Assembly (NCBI RefSeq): GCF_014705615.1
Contig: NZ_JACXJA010000003.1
Coordinates: 62,001 to 126,000, forward strand
DNA from: Paenibacillus oceani
Lineage (GTDB): Bacteria; Bacillota; Bacilli; Paenibacillales; NBRC-103111
DNA length: 64,000 nt
Direction of reading: 5' to 3'
A model generated the notes under the pieces. The model was given only the letters and a program-made list of their open reading frames with translations. It made no database searches and was not told where the DNA came from. Position 1 is the first letter of the stretch. Each line of letters starts with the position of its first letter. A program made the translations under genes and the position numbers. Positions 16,063-58,707 of this stretch are shown here, piece by piece.

Positions 16063-19000
16063 TTACTCAATAAGCAATCCGGCCTTCGACTCCCCGATCG
16101 CCACGATCTCCATGCCGGACTCTTGGGCATAACGGACGCCGGCTAACAGCACATTGTCGTGCAGAACGTCCGTGAAACGCTCCAGCGCCGTTTTGACTTG
16201 CGGGCTCACGTCCAGCACCAGCTTGACGCGTTTCTCGATCGGCAGCTCCAGCTTTTTACGGTAATCCTGCACGGCGCGTACGACTTCGCGGACGAAACCT
16301 TCCTGTTCCAGCTCCTCGGTAATCGCCGTGTTCAAGGCGACGGTCATTTTGTAGCCGGAAGCGGAAGCGAAGCCTTCCTTCGCCTGCTTCTCGACGAGCA
16401 GCTCCTCCAGCGTGACGCGGACCGGTTCTCCTTCGACCGTGATATCGAGGTAGCCGTTATCTACCGCGAGCTTCGACTCGGCCGAAGGGAGCTGCTTCAG
16501 ATGGTTTTGCAGCGGACCGACCAGCTTGCCGTACTTTTTGCCGGCCGCCTTCAGATTCAGCTTCAGGGCGAAGTTGACGAAGCCGCTGTCGCCATGGACG
16601 AGGCGGATCGCTTTGACGTTGATTTCGTCCTTAACGATCGCCTCGAAACGACCAAGATCGAACTCGCGGTCAAGCGCAACGAGCAGCTCGGACAAAGGCT
16701 GGCGCGTTTTGATCCCGGTCTCGTTCCTGACACTTCTCGCCAGTTCGACGATTTGGCGTGCGGTTTCCATATCCGATTCCAATACGGAATCGATCTCCGC
16801 TTCGCTCGCCTGCGGATAATCCGCCAGATGGACGCTTCCCTTGCCGCCGAGGTTGTCGTACAAATCCTCCGCGATCAGCGGCGCATATGGAGCGATCATC
16901 CGCGCTACCGTCAACAGCACACGGCGCAGCGTCTGGTAGGCTGCGACTTTGTCTGCGGTCAAGCCGCTTCCCCAGAAGCGGTCGCGGGAGCGGCGGATGT
17001 ACCAGTTGCTCAGCTCGTCGACGAACGTCTCCAACTGCTTCGCCGGGTTCAGGAAGTCGTACGTCTCCAGCCCTTTGCTTACTTGCTGAAGGGTGGTGTT
17101 CAGTCTGGAGAGAATCCAGCGATCCAGCTCGTTCGTTGAACGCTGCTCCGGGTGATCTTCCGGCTTGTACCCGTCGATCGTCGCATAAAGCGCATAAAAT
17201 GCGTGCGTATTATGGATCGTATCGATCACCTTCGATTTGGCTTCGGCCACGATGCCTTTGGAGAACCGCTTGCTGTTCCACGGCGCGCTGTCGGCCAGCA
17301 GCGCCCAGCGGAACGCATCGGTGCCGAACTCGTCGATGATGTCCCACGGATCGATGACATTGCCTTTGCTTTTAGACATTTTCTGCCCGTTCTCGTCGAG
17401 CACGTGTCCCGTAGAAATAACGGCTTTGTACGGCGATTGGCCGTTATACAGCGTGGACACCGCCAGCAGGCTGAAAAACCAGCCTCTCGTCTGATCGATC
17501 CCTTCGCAGATCATGTCGGCCGGATATTGCTCCTGGAACAGCTGCTTGTCGCCGAACGGGTAGTGCTGCTGGGCGAACGGCATCGAGCCGCTGTCGAACC
17601 AGACGTCGATCACTTCCGGGGTACGGTCCATCGTTCCTCCGCAAGAGCAGCGCAGCAGCACCTCGTCCACGTACGGCTTGTGCAGCTCCAGATTCGGATC
17701 GACCGGCTGAACCGCCCGTTCGCGCAAGTCCGCCGCGCTTCCCGGCGCATATTCGCATCCGCAGTCGCGGCATAACCAGACGTTAAGCGGAGTCCCCCAG
17801 TACCGGTTCCGGCTGATGTTCCAGTCGACCAGCTCCTCCAGAAACTTGCCGAACCGGCCTTCCCGGATATGGGACGGGTACCAGTCGATTTTGCTGTTGT
17901 TTTCGATCAGCTGATCTTTCACCGCGGTCGTCTTGATAAACCAGCTCTCCATCGCGTAATACAGCAGCGGGGATTTGCAGCGCCAGCAGAACGGGTAGCT
18001 GTGCTCGTACCGCTCCTTGGCGAACAGCAGCTTGCGTTCGGACAAGCTTTTGACGATATCGACGTCGCAATCCTTCACGAACCGTCCGGCAAAATCGGCG
18101 ACCTGAGCGGTATAACGCCCGGCCAGATCGACGACGCTTACGAAGTCGAGCCCGTGCTGGCGGGTCGTCCGGTAGTCATCTTCCCCGTGAGCCGGAGCGA
18201 TATGGACGATCCCGGTACCGCTCGAATCGCTGACATAATCGGCATCGACGACGATAAACCCTTTCTTTACGGTCAAGTAAGAGAAAGGTGGTTCGTAAGC
18301 GGCGCCTACGAATTCCGAGCCTTTATGCACGGACAGCCGTTCGAAGTCTTCCTTGAACCATTTGTCGGCCAGATTGTCCGCCACGATATAGACTTCGCCG
18401 GCCTGTCTCACTTTGACGTAATCGAGGTTGGCGTTAACGGCTAACGCGACGTTGGCCGGCAGCGTCCACGGCGTAGTCGTCCAGGCGAGGAAATACTCGC
18501 CGCTTTGCTTATTCCGGAACTTCACGGTCGCGCTTAAATCTTTGACGTCCTCGTAGCCTTGAGCGACCTCGTGCGAGCTGAGCGTCGTCTGGCAATCCGG
18601 GCAGTACGGGCTGACGCGATGGCCTTTGTACAGGAGCCCCTTCTTATGAATCTCCGCTAAAATGTGCCAGACGCTCTCAATGTAGTCATTGGTCAGCGTG
18701 ACATAAGGGTGGTCCATATCGGTCCAGTAGGCGATGCCTTCGGTCAGCTCGCGCCACTGCTTCTCATATTCGAACACGCTGCCTTTGCAAGTCTCGATGA
18801 ATTTGGCAACGCCGTACTTCTCGATCTCCTGCTTGCCGGAGATGCCGAGCTGCTTCTCGACGCCGAGCTCTACCGGCAGACCGTGCGTATCCCAGCCGGC
18901 CTTGCGGACGACGCGGTAACCGGACATCGTCTTATAGCGGCAAATAAAGTCTTTGATAACGCGTCCGAGCACATGCCCGATATGCGGCTTGCCGTTGGCG

Positions 19001-19143
19001 GTCGGAGGACCTTCGTAGAACACGAAATTCGGCTTGCCTTCCCGGTTTGCGATCGACTGCCGGAACGTATCCTCCTGCTTCCATCTCTTTAGTACGCGGA
19101 GCTCGCGTTCTCTTGCTTTTTCTTTGACATCCACTTTTCTCAT
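16063..19143 (-). CDS. ileS: Isoleucine--tRNA ligase, type 2 (IleRS2)
   Basis: A 1026-residue class I aminoacyl-tRNA synthetase that charges tRNA-Ile. HIGH is at residues 54-57 (PHIGHVLGRVIKD) and KMSKS at about 587-591. The RYKTM and AGWDTHGLPVELGVEK block, WFDSGSMPFAQQHYPF and the C-terminal region mark the eukaryote-like IleRS2 branch, not the type-1 enzyme of Bacillus subtilis. IleRS2 enzymes are known to be far less sensitive to mupirocin; that property is inferred here. The open frame extends to 19272 through the leader, but the ATG at 19143 fits the family N-terminus (MRKVDVKEKAREREL) and has AGAGG upstream. Expression should be governed by the T-box at 19187-19441. Confidence 0.95.
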   Translation of the reverse strand: MRKVDVKEKARERELRVLKRWKQEDTFRQSIANREGKPNFVFYEGPPTANGKPHIGHVLGRVIKDFICRYKTMSGYRVVRKAGWDTHGLPVELGVEKQLGISGKQEIEKYGVAKFIETCKGSVFEYEKQWRELTEGIAYWTDMDHPYVTLTNDYIESVWHILAEIHKKGLLYKGHRVSPYCPDCQTTLSSHEVAQGYEDVKDLSATVKFRNKQSGEYFLAWTTTPWTLPANVALAVNANLDYVKVRQAGEVYIVADNLADKWFKEDFERLSVHKGSEFVGAAYEPPFSYLTVKKGFIVVDADYVSDSSGTGIVHIAPAHGEDDYRTTRQHGLDFVSVVDLAGRYTAQVADFAGRFVKDCDVDIVKSLSERKLLFAKERYEHSYPFCWRCKSPLLYYAMESWFIKTTAVKDQLIENNSKIDWYPSHIREGRFGKFLEELVDWNISRNRYWGTPLNVWLCRDCGCEYAPGSAADLRERAVQPVDPNLELHKPYVDEVLLRCSCGGTMDRTPEVIDVWFDSGSMPFAQQHYPFGDKQLFQEQYPADMICEGIDQTRGWFFSLLAVSTLYNGQSPYKAVISTGHVLDENGQKMSKSKGNVIDPWDIIDEFGTDAFRWALLADSAPWNSKRFSKGIVAEAKSKVIDTIHNTHAFYALYATIDGYKPEDHPEQRSTNELDRWILSRLNTTLQQVSKGLETYDFLNPAKQLETFVDELSNWYIRRSRDRFWGSGLTADKVAAYQTLRRVLLTVARMIAPYAPLIAEDLYDNLGGKGSVHLADYPQASEAEIDSVLESDMETARQIVELARSVRNETGIKTRQPLSELLVALDREFDLGRFEAIVKDEINVKAIRLVHGDSGFVNFALKLNLKAAGKKYGKLVGPLQNHLKQLPSAESKLAVDNGYLDITVEGEPVRVTLEELLVEKQAKEGFASASGYKMTVALNTAITEELEQEGFVREVVRAVQDYRKKLELPIEKRVKLVLDVSPQVKTALERFTDVLHDNVLLAGVRYAQESGMEIVAIGESKAGLLIE

Positions 19144-19186
19144 CGCGCTTAGCCATCCTCTCGGGTTCATAACCATAATCAAACAA

Positions 19187-19441
19187 AAAAATCCCGTCCC
19201 TCTAAGGGACGAGATTATCTCTCGCGCTACCACCCTTGTTCCGTTCGACCCATGCTCCGAGTCTCCCGGCACTTCAACTGCGCACTATCATGCGCGTCCC
19301 TTGTAACGGCGGGACCCCGGGGCGGCTTACTGGAGCGCTTCAGCTTTCCTTCTCGGAGAGGATGTTCGGCTAACACTTGAACGTTGGCTTTCAGCTCGTG
19401 GCCAACTCTCTGGGGGACAAGGGATTAGCGTACTCGTTCTC
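19187..19441 (-). promoter_or_regulatory. T-box riboswitch (tRNA-Ile) of ileS
   Basis: The minus-strand leader contains the T-box core AGGGTGGTAGCGCG (19223-19236). It is followed by a terminator formed by ATCTCGTCCC and GGGACGGGAT with seven Ts (about 19186-19215), which competes with the antiterminator. Stem I starts near 19440; its 3' part reads GCCGAACATCC, placing an AUC isoleucine specifier at 19361-19363. Uncharged tRNA-Ile would bind and allow readthrough. Confidence 0.93.
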
Positions 19442-19476
19442 GTCAATGAATTTGGTTATGGCATGTAATTAACTCT

Positions 19477-19649: not shown

Positions 19650-20219
19650 ATGAGAAAACGTATGATGACCATCCTGTTGTGCAGTTTGCTAGCTATGGCG
19701 GTGATCGGGTTCGCCGCTCCTGCGGACGTATTCGCCTGTTCCTGCGCGGCGCCTCCGTCCGTACAGTCCGAGATGAATCGGAAGACGGCGATCTTCGCCG
19801 GGAAGGTGAAGGACGTCAAGCAGCCGGGCAAAATCGGCTTCGCGCAATCGTCGGCCGATCCGGTACGCGTTACGTTCGAAGTGACGACGGTGTGGAAGGG
19901 GCAGGTTGCGTCCACGACGGAAGTGTACACGGCGATGAGCTCGGCGAGCTGCGGCTATACCGGATTTGCCGTCAACCAGAGCTATCTCGTCTCCGCTTAC
20001 GGAACGTCGGACCGGCTGGAGACCGGTATGTGCGAGATGACCAAGCCGTTGTCCGCGGCAAGCCTGGAGCTGGCCGAGCTGGGCACGGGTCAAGCGCCCG
20101 ACCCTTCCAAGGCGGTTGCCGAAGGGAGTTATATCGTTCCGGCGGTCGCGGCGGTATCCGTGTTGGTTCTCGCGGCGGCGGCAGCGCTGTTCGTGATGTC
20201 GAGGAGGCGTAGAACGTAA
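19650..20219 (+). CDS. Membrane-anchored secreted CSC-motif protein (TIMP-like N-terminal domain)
   Basis: A 189-residue exported protein. It has a signal peptide (residues 1-30, basic then hydrophobic, cut near VFA-C), the mature N-terminus CSCAAPPS, an OB-fold-like body (AIFAGKVKDV, VTFEVTTVWKG, SCGYTGF with further cysteines at about 102 and 128) and a C-terminal membrane anchor (about 161-183) followed by RRRRT. The CSC start plus this body is the pattern of tissue-inhibitor-of-metalloprotease-like bacterial proteins, some of which sit on cell surfaces; function is unproven. AGAGGTG precedes the ATG. No operon partner. Confidence 0.72.
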   Translation: MRKRMMTILLCSLLAMAVIGFAAPADVFACSCAAPPSVQSEMNRKTAIFAGKVKDVKQPGKIGFAQSSADPVRVTFEVTTVWKGQVASTTEVYTAMSSASCGYTGFAVNQSYLVSAYGTSDRLETGMCEMTKPLSAASLELAELGTGQAPDPSKAVAEGSYIVPAVAAVSVLVLAAAAALFVMSRRRRT

Positions 20220-20420: not shown

Positions 20421-20552
20421 ATTGGGTAAAGTTAACCTTGTACGTGCAGCGTTGCCGAATCAGGGTCTAACGTTCGTGTGGCTGCACCGTGCCTGCGTTC
20501 CAAATTCGAAAATCGAGACGTAACCAATTGCGTCGGATAAGGAGGTGTCCAA

Positions 20553-20681
20553 ATGTTGCAAGTCGCCGTTCGTAGCGGGTGGTCCATATTCTGGGTGCAT
20601 CAGGCTACAATTGTATTCCGTTTTGCCGATAACGGGAGACGTCTGTCTTTTTTTGGCGACTGCAGCATTTTGACCCTGTAG
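20553..20681 (+). CDS. 42-residue small ORF upstream of the ABC-F gene (candidate leader peptide)
   Basis: An ATG at 20553 is preceded by AAGGAGGTG at 6 bases spacing, one of the best ribosome sites in the window. The frame encodes 42 residues (MLQVAVRSGWSIFWVHQ… ending GDCSILTL) and stops at TAG 20679-20681. The product is basic and aromatic-rich, with no recognised family. A Rho-independent attenuator begins 57 bases later and the ABC-F gene 143 bases later. Antibiotic-responsive ABC-F genes are often preceded by a translated leader whose ribosome occupancy controls an attenuator, so it is read here as a candidate regulatory ORF. It is longer than most such leaders, and a free-standing small protein is possible. 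Confidence 0.55.
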   Translation: MLQVAVRSGWSIFWVHQATIVFRFADNGRRLSFFGDCSILTL

Positions 20682-20738
20682 TTCGAGTACGTGCACCGGT
20701 GTAAGCGCCGGAACGGACTTGGCTTATTCGGCTATGAG

Positions 20739-20781
20739 AAGCCGCGGGTAAAAGGCTGTATGCCTGAACCTGCGGCTTTTT
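20739..20781 (+). terminator. Candidate transcription attenuator before the ABC-F gene
   Basis: AAGCCGCGGGT (20739-20749) pairs with ACCTGCGGCTT (20768-20778) over 11 positions with one G-U pair, a nested AGGC/GCCT hairpin in the loop, and TTTTT at the end. It ends 43 bases before the ABC-F start. An alternative hairpin CGGCT-ATGAGA-AGCCG immediately upstream shares the AGCCG arm and would act as an antiterminator. Confidence 0.65.
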
Positions 20782-20824
20782 GGCGTACAAATAAACGAAA
20801 CTATACGTACGGAGATGATCGGCG

Positions 20825-22819
20825 ATGATGATGTGTTACGCGGAGAAAATAAGCAAAAGGTGGGGCGGGACGCTCGTATTCGAGCAGCTCTCGCTGGAAA
20901 TACAGGACGGGGAGCGGATCGGACTGGTCGGACCGAACGGCTGCGGCAAATCGACGGTGCTGAAGCTGTTGTCCGGCATGGAGCCTCCCGATTCGGGAAT
21001 GATTCATTATAAGAAAGGGAGCCGGACGGCGATGCTGGCGCAAATCCCGGATTACGGCCCGGACATAACGGCGCTGGAAGTGCTGGAGCTGGCGTTCGCC
21101 GAGCTGCTCCGATTGAAGCGGAGAATGACGGAGCTGGAGAGCGAGATGGCGAGTCCCGATCCGAATACGATGGAGAAGACGCTCAACGAATACGGCACGC
21201 TGCAGCATACTTTTGCCACAATGGGCGGGTACGAGATGGAGGCGAACCGGTCGCGCGTAGCCGACGGTTTGGGGATCAAGCATTTGCTGCAGATGCCGTT
21301 CGACCGGTTGAGCGGAGGCGAGCGGACCAAAGTGTGCCTGGGGCGGATTTTGCTCGAGGGCCCGGATCTGCTGCTGCTGGACGAACCGACTAATCATCTC
21401 GATCTAAGCGCGGTCGAATGGCTGGAGACGTATTTGCAGGATTACCGGGGCAGCGTACTGATCGTATCGCATGACCGTTATTTTCTCGACCGTGTCGTGA
21501 CCAAAGTGTACGATCTGGAGGGCGGCGCCGTAGACATTTATCACGGCAACTACTCGTACTTCGTGGAAGAGAAGGAGCGGCGGCTGCTGCTCGATTTTGC
21601 CGCTTTCCAGGAGCAGCAGAAGAAGATCCGGAAGATGGAGGAAGCGATCAAGCGGATGCGGCTCTGGGCGGCGCAGGCCGACAATCCGTTGATGTTCAAA
21701 AGGGCGGCGGCGATGCAGAAAGCGCTGGACCGGATGAACAAGCTGGACCGCCCTGTGCTCGAGCGCAAGAAGATGGGGCTGACATTCGAGATGAGTGAGC
21801 GCAGCGGCAAGGACGTCGTCCGAATGGAAGGCGTCAGCAAATCTTTCGGAAGCAGCGGCGAAGCGGCCGAGTTAACAAACGACAGCGGCGGCGGTCTGGA
21901 CCGCGGAGGCGATCGGCGCGAAGGCAGGGCGCTGTACGCGAATGTCGATCTGCACGTCCGCTTCGGCGAGGCGGTGGCGATCGTAGGCGATAACGGGAGC
22001 GGCAAATCGACCCTGCTCCGCATGATTCTGGGCCAACTGCAGCCGGACAGCGGGACGGTGACGGTTGGAAGCCAGGTGAAAATCGGCTATTTGGCGCAGC
22101 GCGATTGGTTTCCGGACGAAGAGAAAACGATTGTGGACGCGTTTCGCGACATGGTGATGGTCGAGGAGGGGGAAGCCCGCCATCTGCTCGCCAAATTTTT
22201 GTTTTACGGCGCGTCGGTGTACCGCAAAGTAAACGCCTTAAGCGGCGGCGAGCGGATGCGTCTTCGGCTGGCGCAGCTGATGCATCAGGAAATGAACGCG
22301 CTCGTGCTGGACGAACCGACCAACCATCTCGATATCGATGCCCGCGAAGCGCTGGAAGATACGCTGGCCGCGTTTCCCGGCACGCTGATTTGCGTATCGC
22401 ACGACCGATATTTGCTGAACAAGCTGTTTCCAGTCACATATTGGCTGGAAGACGGTGCGCTTACCCGTTACGAAGGCGGATATAACGACGCGAAGCGAAA
22501 ACGCGGGGAGTTGCGATCCGGGAGACAAGCGGCGGCGCTAGCAAGTAAAGACGGCAAAACTCTGGCGGCTGCCGGGAAAAACGGCGGAGGAAGAGAGGAG
22601 AGCCGGAGCGGCGGGAGAAGATCCGCGGACGATCACGGGAAGCTTCTTGCCGATCTGGAAGTCGATATTGCATCGATGGAGCGCAAGCTGGCCGTGCTGG
22701 ACGAGGCGATGATGGCCGAGACGGAACCGAAAAAGCTGGCGGAGCTTCACGGTGAGAAGCAACTGCTGGAGGCGGAACGGGAGCTGCTGTATCAGCGGCT
22801 CGAGCAAGCGGAGAGCTAG
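20825..22819 (+). CDS. ABC-F family ATPase (ribosome-associated)
   Basis: A 664-residue soluble protein with two ABC domains and no membrane segments. The first has Walker A GPNGCGKST (about 36-44), signature LSGGERTK and Walker B LLLLDEPTNHLD (about 182); the second has GDNGSGKST (about 390), LSGGERMR and DEPTNHLD (about 494). A charged interdomain linker (FQEQQKKIRKMEEAIKRMR) fits the P-site tRNA interaction motif. There is a glycine-rich insert at about 350-370 and a C-terminal coiled coil (about 600-664). ABC-F proteins act at the ribosomal E site in translation or antibiotic protection; which applies cannot be told. The attenuated leader hints at inducible expression. Three consecutive ATGs (20825, 20828, 20831) are possible starts after GGAG. 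Confidence 0.88.
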   Translation: MMMCYAEKISKRWGGTLVFEQLSLEIQDGERIGLVGPNGCGKSTVLKLLSGMEPPDSGMIHYKKGSRTAMLAQIPDYGPDITALEVLELAFAELLRLKRRMTELESEMASPDPNTMEKTLNEYGTLQHTFATMGGYEMEANRSRVADGLGIKHLLQMPFDRLSGGERTKVCLGRILLEGPDLLLLDEPTNHLDLSAVEWLETYLQDYRGSVLIVSHDRYFLDRVVTKVYDLEGGAVDIYHGNYSYFVEEKERRLLLDFAAFQEQQKKIRKMEEAIKRMRLWAAQADNPLMFKRAAAMQKALDRMNKLDRPVLERKKMGLTFEMSERSGKDVVRMEGVSKSFGSSGEAAELTNDSGGGLDRGGDRREGRALYANVDLHVRFGEAVAIVGDNGSGKSTLLRMILGQLQPDSGTVTVGSQVKIGYLAQRDWFPDEEKTIVDAFRDMVMVEEGEARHLLAKFLFYGASVYRKVNALSGGERMRLRLAQLMHQEMNALVLDEPTNHLDIDAREALEDTLAAFPGTLICVSHDRYLLNKLFPVTYWLEDGALTRYEGGYNDAKRKRGELRSGRQAAALASKDGKTLAAAGKNGGGREESRSGGRRSADDHGKLLADLEVDIASMERKLAVLDEAMMAETEPKKLAELHGEKQLLEAERELLYQRLEQAES

Positions 22820-58569: not shown

Positions 58570-58674
58570 GGGTGTCACTAGGGGAGCCCGGCAGGGCTGA
58601 GATTGGATGTGCGCACATCCTAGACCCTTCGAACCTGATCTGGATGATGCCAGCGTAGGGAAGTGGGACACCTG
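58570..58674 (+). promoter_or_regulatory. TPP (THI-box) riboswitch
   Basis: The aptamer shows the conserved blocks CTAGGGGAGCCC, GGGCTGAGA, ACCCTTCGAACCTGATCTGG, and GCGTAGGGAAGTGG, closed by GGTGTC and GGACACC. It is followed by a terminator, so thiamine pyrophosphate should stop transcription of the ykoE-tenA operon. Confidence 0.97.
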
Positions 58675-58707
58675 ACCGTTCGAACCGATCGTTTCATTCG
58701 AATGCCA

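Follow-up and report, generated by a model that had tools for sequence, protein, structure and literature searches.

A 42-codon upstream ORF with paired ends in a probable ribosome-sensing attenuator of a Paenibacillus oceani ABC-F gene

In the window (the whole stretch of Paenibacillus oceani DNA analysed here, 64,000 nucleotides long), a 42-codon upstream ORF (uORF), an intrinsic terminator and a gene for an ABC-F ATPase follow one another on the forward strand. This arrangement raises the question of whether the uORF belongs to a ribosome-sensing attenuator or encodes a separate small protein. A preliminary description had reported the uORF, its Shine-Dalgarno (SD) sequence, the terminator, the ABC-F start and an alternative hairpin (CGGCT/AGCCG), and all of them lie where it had put them (Table 1).

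Table 1 Features of the leader and the ABC-F gene, in window positions
Feature	Position	Strand	Basis or remark
SD of uORF, AAGGAGG	20539..20545	+	Sequence
42-codon leader ORF MLQVAVRSGWSIFWVHQATIVFRFADNGRRLSFFGDCSILTL (ATG 20553; TAG 20679-20681)	20553..20681	+	Homologue at 18/18 orthologous ABC-F loci, window included
P0 5' strand (SD end, start codon, codons 2-5)	20544..20567	+	Partner 20655-20676
P0 3' strand (last uORF codons)	20655..20676	+	Pairing in window-type alignment
P1 (antiterminator) 5' strand TTTTGACCC, within P0 3' strand	20668-20676	+	
P0b 5' strand, inside uORF	20571..20576	+	Partner 20604-20609; both-side changes in 2/6 pairs
P0b 3' strand	20604..20609	+	Same alignment as P0b 5' strand
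P0d 5' strand	20618..20621	+	Partner 20632-20635, where the shared element begins
Shared element ACGGGAGACGTCTGTCTTTTT; candidate RNA-polymerase pause	20632..20652	+	Nucleotide conservation; putative pause role
P2 hairpin, part of antiterminator fold	20677..20729	+	Unrelated sequence across orthologues
P3 hairpin CGGCT-ATGAGA-AGCCG	20729..20744	+	Overlaps terminator 5' arm
P1 3' strand GGGTAAAAGG	20746..20755	+	Within terminator 5' arm
Intrinsic terminator (hairpin 20738-20779, U tract 20777-20781)	20738..20781	+	Folding, conservation
ABC-F ATPase, 664 aa	20825..22819	+	NF000355, 455.3 bits

The ABC-F gene and its leader in relatives

The ABC-F protein passes the cut-off (380) of the NF000355 model for ribosomal protection-like ABC-F proteins but does not reach the cut-off of any named resistance subfamily compared (Vga, Msr, Lsa, Sal, OptrA, CplR and TlrC/CarA); its gene is a probable antibiotic-protection gene. 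TaeA of Paenibacillus sp. LC231 (PMC5155152) is grouped with Uup proteins in the part of PMC6723617 covered. When we searched 98 relatives with the window's ABC-F protein, 97 gave matches at E<=1e-30. Loci L001-L030 were fetched by their ABC-F genes and L031-L100 were picked by matches to the peptide family RAxF-45, so only the first 30 form an unselected ABC-F sample. A related uORF was present in 28 of these 30 and absent from L029 and L030 (ABC-F 39-40% identical). The orthologous group (L001-L017 and L023; aligned ABC-F identity 61-71%) carries the uORF at every locus, with GGGGG as the SD at four, and the 17 loci examined besides the window's own all retain both the uORF and a terminator. 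Across 97 leaders, a hairpin and T tract separate the uORF from the ABC-F gene in 96, the exception being L056, whose ABC-F start is ill-placed. The ORF and hairpins are thus conserved in relatives, which was the comparison that the preliminary description had proposed as a check of its attenuator reading. Searching with a profile built on window-type uORFs (A1) gave matches in 13 of 104 genomes from the family.

The long uORF is a leader with relatives in a broad family that is already named and unexplained, RAxF-45 (NF041642), whose description assigns no function. Like the window uORF, RAxF-45 members are placed before ABC-F genes and many share the leader architecture, but the window uORF itself scores below the family cut-off (18.7 bits against 27). 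Among 392 genomes from the order, RAxF-45 had matches at E<=0.01 in 198 (63 exceed the cut-off), and in neither the window's own genome nor its four genus mates. An ABC-F gene lies directly 3' of the match in 30 of the 30 top loci fetched and adjoins it in 39 of 40 further loci, the fortieth (L099) being an erm-type leader. Because ABC-F genes adjoin nearly all fetched matches, we read RAxF-45 proteins as leader ORFs. A full-text literature search for "RAxF-45", with most subscription journals outside its coverage, found no paper.

The terminator hairpin begins 57 nt past the uORF stop, and the ABC-F ATG lies 43 nt beyond the U tract. Folding of 20715-20790 gave -33.6 kcal/mol (z -4.1; equalled by 0 of 200 shuffles), and folding of 20500-20860 gave -132.6 (z -5.2; 0 of 100). 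A simple terminator scan of the window did not list the leader terminator because its loop limit was 8, and the terminator-like sites in that scan were no commoner than in shuffles. The conservation of the uORF and of a terminator across the loci described above speaks against a chance origin. A sequence scan for a leader promoter found none. Rfam gave no leader match at gathering scores and none in seven leader loci at E<=1; the only match around the leader was a neighbouring T-box. This T-box leader (RF00230, 96.3 bits, 19202-19455, - strand) heads a 1069-aa ORF (16063-19272, - strand) that by eye looks like an isoleucyl-tRNA synthetase. Just 5' of the uORF leader, a 189-aa ORF (19650-20219, + strand) weakly matches the Pfam family TIMP (26.3 bits against a cut-off of 23.1), and a TPP riboswitch (RF00059, 78.2 bits) is found at 58570-58678 (+ strand).

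Pairing of the uORF ends and the terminator switch

The end of the SD, the start codon and codons 2-5 of the uORF pair with its last codons in a 22-bp helix, P0. In the 17 of 18 window-type rows counted (L008, with one extra nucleotide before its ATG, was omitted), 96.8% of P0 cells are paired and 8 of the 22 pairs show changes on both sides. None of 500 shuffles matched the whole 36-pair structure in paired cells, both-side changes or covariation score, and only the measure of further pair types was not above shuffles (reached by 271 of 500). Sliding the pairing register dropped paired cells from 95% to 28-45%, and RNAalifold found the P0 helix unprompted. The start:end duplex had a z of -5.5 and a median partner-swap rank of 0.12 in 17 window-type leaders; in 52 distant leaders, the mean z was -3.45 (sem 0.22; 85% below -2) and the median rank 0.10. 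(The duplex, start:end and antiterminator tests omitted L056, L031-L034, L045, L047 and near-duplicates; one other leader comparison omitted L056, L031-L034 and near-duplicates.) The same start-to-end closure is found in more distant ABC-F leaders, RAxF-45 matches among them, and the divergent L031 and L034 offer further examples. The uORF is therefore largely an RNA device.

P0 and the antiterminator helix P1 share the strand TTTTGACCC, whose P1 partner, GGGTAAAAGG, lies in the terminator arm. Because the last uORF codons serve both helices, P0 would exclude P1. In ensembles, pairs between region 2 and the terminator arm were more numerous than in shuffles for all 17 window-type leaders (MFE z -2.10, sem 0.31). 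MFE folds begun just past the shared element contained CCC:arm pairing in 15 of 18 leaders, with at least three further pairs in 10 of 18; the window's own leader had no P1 in the MFE fold begun there and formed it once the fold began at region 2. P2 had a mean z of -2.78, with 18 of 18 leaders below -1 (mononucleotide shuffles). The alternative hairpin of the preliminary description, P3, is conserved upstream of the terminator arm (GGCT in 14 of 18 leaders, GGC in 18 of 18), but it forms only an arm of the larger predicted antiterminator, and the part of main switch falls to the 22-bp helix joining both uORF ends rather than to this small hairpin.

In 52 distant (R-type) leaders, the antiterminator ensemble was no better than shuffles (more pairs than shuffles in 35 of 52 leaders; MFE z -0.07), nor was the A:t5 duplex (z +0.42). 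The antiterminator is thus supported, at the level of predicted pairing, in the window's leader type and not in the distant type. In distant leaders (e.g., L037, L042 and L063), the uORF end also pairs with a stretch past the terminator and before the ABC-F SD; this A:D pairing exceeded shuffles across the 52 (z about -1.2 to -1.3) and could form a translational layer there. It was not above shuffles in window-type leaders, and for that reason we omitted it from the window's model. One could suppose that P0 mainly silences translation of the uORF itself or protects the RNA, while something else controls termination. The SD and start codon do lie in P0, and the distant leaders lend the antiterminator no support, but the window type shares one strand between P0 and P1 and all 17 of its leaders favour P1 over shuffles, and we regard this explanation as unlikely.

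The middle of the uORF is constrained differently from its ends. In-frame pN/pS of the middle codons was 0.43 (140 pairs) and 0.37 (2134 pairs; pairs not mutually independent), against 0.80-1.55 in the other frames, which points to peptide-level selection on these codons (pN/pS about 0.4). For six motif codons (NGR-S-L-S; 10 distant leaders omitted), pN/pS was 1.43 and 1.03 and synonymous diversity 0.07 and 0.04. We considered NGRSLS as a peptide arrest motif and rejected it, as the constraint acts at the nucleotide level and other frames are used. At the 3' end of the uORF, distant leaders keep one nucleotide string across differing frames, and the C-terminal part is frame-shifted from leader to leader.

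These data bear on whether the uORF serves to produce a functional small protein, co-expressed with the ABC-F protein, with its RNA pairing being secondary. Purifying selection on the middle codons would suit such a protein, as would the listing of the related RAxF-45 family as proteins by NCBI. Against it, the ends of the uORF are conserved as a covarying helix, the NGR-S-L-S stretch is conserved as nucleotides, and the frame in which these nucleotides are read differs among related leaders; we therefore think it very improbable. The preliminary description had left a new leader type and a separate small protein as alternatives: the leader stands, the uORF is not simply a small protein, and it has kin in RAxF-45.

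We thus find a uORF upstream of the gene, marked by an SD, conservation and in-frame pN/pS, a terminator between the two, and an anti-antiterminator that includes the uORF. Taken together, the leader is probably a ribosome-sensing attenuator composed of P0, the competing P1/P2/P3 fold, the terminator and, likely, a pause element. Its predicted logic is of the VmlR type, with a long uORF lying within the anti-antiterminator. When the uORF holds no ribosome, P0 would form and block region 2, the terminator would fold and transcription would stop; a ribosome at the uORF stop codon could likewise cover the region 2 strand and let the terminator fold. A ribosome that a drug arrests on the uORF start codon or close to it would mask the P0 5' strand and keep P0 open; alternatively, an arrest in the middle of the uORF, where the peptide is conserved, might keep P0 open through the ribosomes queued behind it. 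Region 2 could then pair with the terminator arm, and polymerase would read into the ABC-F gene. The element ACGGGAnnnGTnTGTCC would most likely pause polymerase so that a ribosome loads before this decision. Comparison of loci shows the uORF, P0, the terminator, the competing fold of the window's type and the element, at its fixed spacing and in any frame, and we infer translation of the uORF in vivo, drug arrest, protection of the P0 5' strand, read-through and pausing. The short uORFs MIN, MR[I/M], MK[L/Q] and MAGN are regarded, in the passages covered of PMC10201436, as sensors of drugs by which ribosomes are arrested at initiation. A start-codon ribosome that masks the P0 5' strand would follow the same logic, and selection on the peptide in the middle of the uORF hints at a further arrest that depends on sequence.

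A nucleotide element shared by resistance-gene leaders

The element is kept as nucleotides in any frame, typically ~80 nt past the uORF start. Its pattern, ACGGGAKHVGTNTGTCYNTTT, was sought in 246 genomes from the order, where 84 had a match, and in 398 from the class, where 55 did; a reversed-pattern control gave 0 matches in either sample. A contig scan returned at least 118 stretches; among the matches listed, the named ones were mostly Bacilli (L211 is from Paenibacillus flagellatus), and the few MAG matches from other groups may be due to chance. Among the ORFs with an SD that lay 40-1000 nt downstream of each locus, a script chose the longest and trimmed it to 300 aa; 8 of the 118 loci listed had none by this rule. 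Among the matches listed for 110 downstream ORFs, at least 68 hit ABC-F models, and Pfam assigned (in counts that may overlap) at least 16 to MFS_1, six to rRNA adenine dimethylases (Erm type), four to the RlmA zinc ribbon, three to APH kinases, three to GNAT acetyltransferases and four to pentapeptide repeats. Some of the kinases presumably resemble Mph. Full scans identified an Msr-family ABC-F (L157) and an Erm (L159), each above cut-off, an RlmA-like protein (L158), and CatB/Vat-like enzymes below cut-off (L161 and L162).

Several individual loci merit description. The element follows ErmD-like leader peptides at L099, L157, L158, L159, L169 and L170 (we take MTHSIRLRFPTLNR-like leaders to resemble ErmD leader peptides), and in several such leaders its 5' half could, by eye, pair with a downstream CCC(G)TTTAC. 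L155, L156, L160 and L167 combine the element with a possible 5-codon uORF (MPDFS) and GNAT-type acetyltransferase genes; the L155 product matches a pentapeptide-repeat (Qnr) model below cut-off. At L147 (1501-1521), the match falls within the loop of a hairpin that resembles a terminator; the ORF that follows has no NCBIfam match, and the element match may be fortuitous.

A strong SD and start codon lay within 140 nt upstream of the element in 51 of 69 non-redundant leaders and in 3 of 69 shuffles, at a median start-to-element distance of 79 nt (quartiles 76-82.5, range 43-89); the 18 leaders without an SD-start by this rule include the GNAT and CatB/Vat leaders. Within the uORF, the element is read in frame 1 in 28 leaders, frame 0 in four and frame 2 in four, and in 15 the uORF stops before it. 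It lies 60-90 nt from the start in 22 of the 23 leaders that do not read it in frame 1. The halves of the element paired with their flanks no better than shuffles in the 69 leaders, so no structure explains its core and a trans-acting reader is likely. Pairing of the element with the uORF end or the terminator arm was not above shuffles either. An upstream pause hairpin on ACGGG was unsupported (mean pairing 0.54, against 0.51 for shuffles, which 38 of the 69 leaders exceeded). A uniform NusG motif (TTNTTT) after the element was discarded as a candidate, being missing by eye from several leaders. A full-text search for the letters of the element found no paper, and broader searches listed none that describes such an element in its title or the opening of its abstract, within a coverage that leaves out most subscription journals.

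The elemental pause consensus favours G-11 and T-3. Elemental pauses also prefer G-10 and Y-1 G+1 (PMC12288461, in the part covered). In the window, the register with Y-1 at 20644 and G+1 at 20645 has G at 20634 (G-11) and 20635 and lies ~91 nt past the start; consensus matches of this kind are not unusual in a short motif (a chance of ~0.1 by rough hand estimate). The TlrB leader (MIIQFIRYR) has a toeprint at U74 at the Tyr codon and a pause at U129-U131 (PMC6851288, passages covered), from which we derive a start-to-pause distance of 91-94 nt; the similarity of the two distances is only suggestive. From spacing and a loose consensus, we infer that the element may be a programmed RNA-polymerase pause, or another factor site, that times the ribosome. 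More broadly, we lean slightly towards ACGGGAnnnGTnTGTCC being a general timing element of Bacilli antibiotic-sensing leaders (a frame-independent candidate pause or factor site), ~80 nt past the uORF start and ahead of ABC-F, Erm, RlmA-like, MFS, phosphotransferase and acetyltransferase genes. Its frame independence, the many unrelated resistance genes that it precedes and the lack of a pairing partner among those sought would also fit a site for a trans-acting antiterminator or RNA-binding protein, or a ribosome contact, in place of a pause. The fixed spacing from the uORF start, however, suits polymerase/ribosome timing, and the TlrB pause distance compares with that of the element register (PMC6851288, passages covered), which leaves such a site conceivable but somewhat doubtful.

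Significance and comparison with known leaders

On this analysis, a named but unexplained peptide family is explained as leader ORFs, a uORF acts as its own anti-antiterminator, and a short DNA tag can find predicted drug-inducible ribosome-protection genes, unannotated ones included. If the element is indeed a general timing element, drug-inducible resistance genes could be recognised as a class by one sequence; should the tag prove to be a pause, the timing of polymerase and ribosome would be a step common to inducible resistance across Bacilli.

The layout of uORF, terminator and predicted antiterminator matches that of ABC-F ribosome-sensing attenuators as described in the passages covered of PMC9226507 and PMC10201436, in keeping with the attenuator-like logic first proposed for this locus. 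The vmlR leader of B. subtilis (PMC9226507) likewise has a uORF in an anti-antiterminator hairpin, a terminator and an ABC-F gene; its antiterminator has a predicted counterpart in the window, and its polymerase pause between uORF and terminator a candidate one in the shared element. Its uORF, however, is 3 codons long (MIN), whereas the window uORF has 42 and forms the helix from its own ends, and the passages covered of that account do not describe the shared element. The cplR, vmlR2 and lsaA genes (PMC10201436, in the part covered) are also ABC-F genes with conserved uORFs and attenuation, but their uORFs have 3-4 codons (MR[I/M], MK[L/Q] and MAGN) without a long conserved peptide. The tlrB/yxjB leader (PMC6851288) shares a short leader peptide, a terminator and an SD-sequestering hairpin, and its polymerase pause downstream of the uORF has a candidate counterpart in the shared element; it differs in its NusG T-rich pause and RYR arrest, and ACGGGAnnnGTnTGTCC goes unmentioned in the passages covered. 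Finally, the bmrB leader of bmrCD (PMC4191407, in the part covered), which is induced by 50S drugs, resembles the predicted layout of the window's leader in its long leader ORF (162 bp), anti-antiterminator, antiterminator and terminator, but its terminator lies within the ORF and the gene that it controls encodes an efflux transporter.
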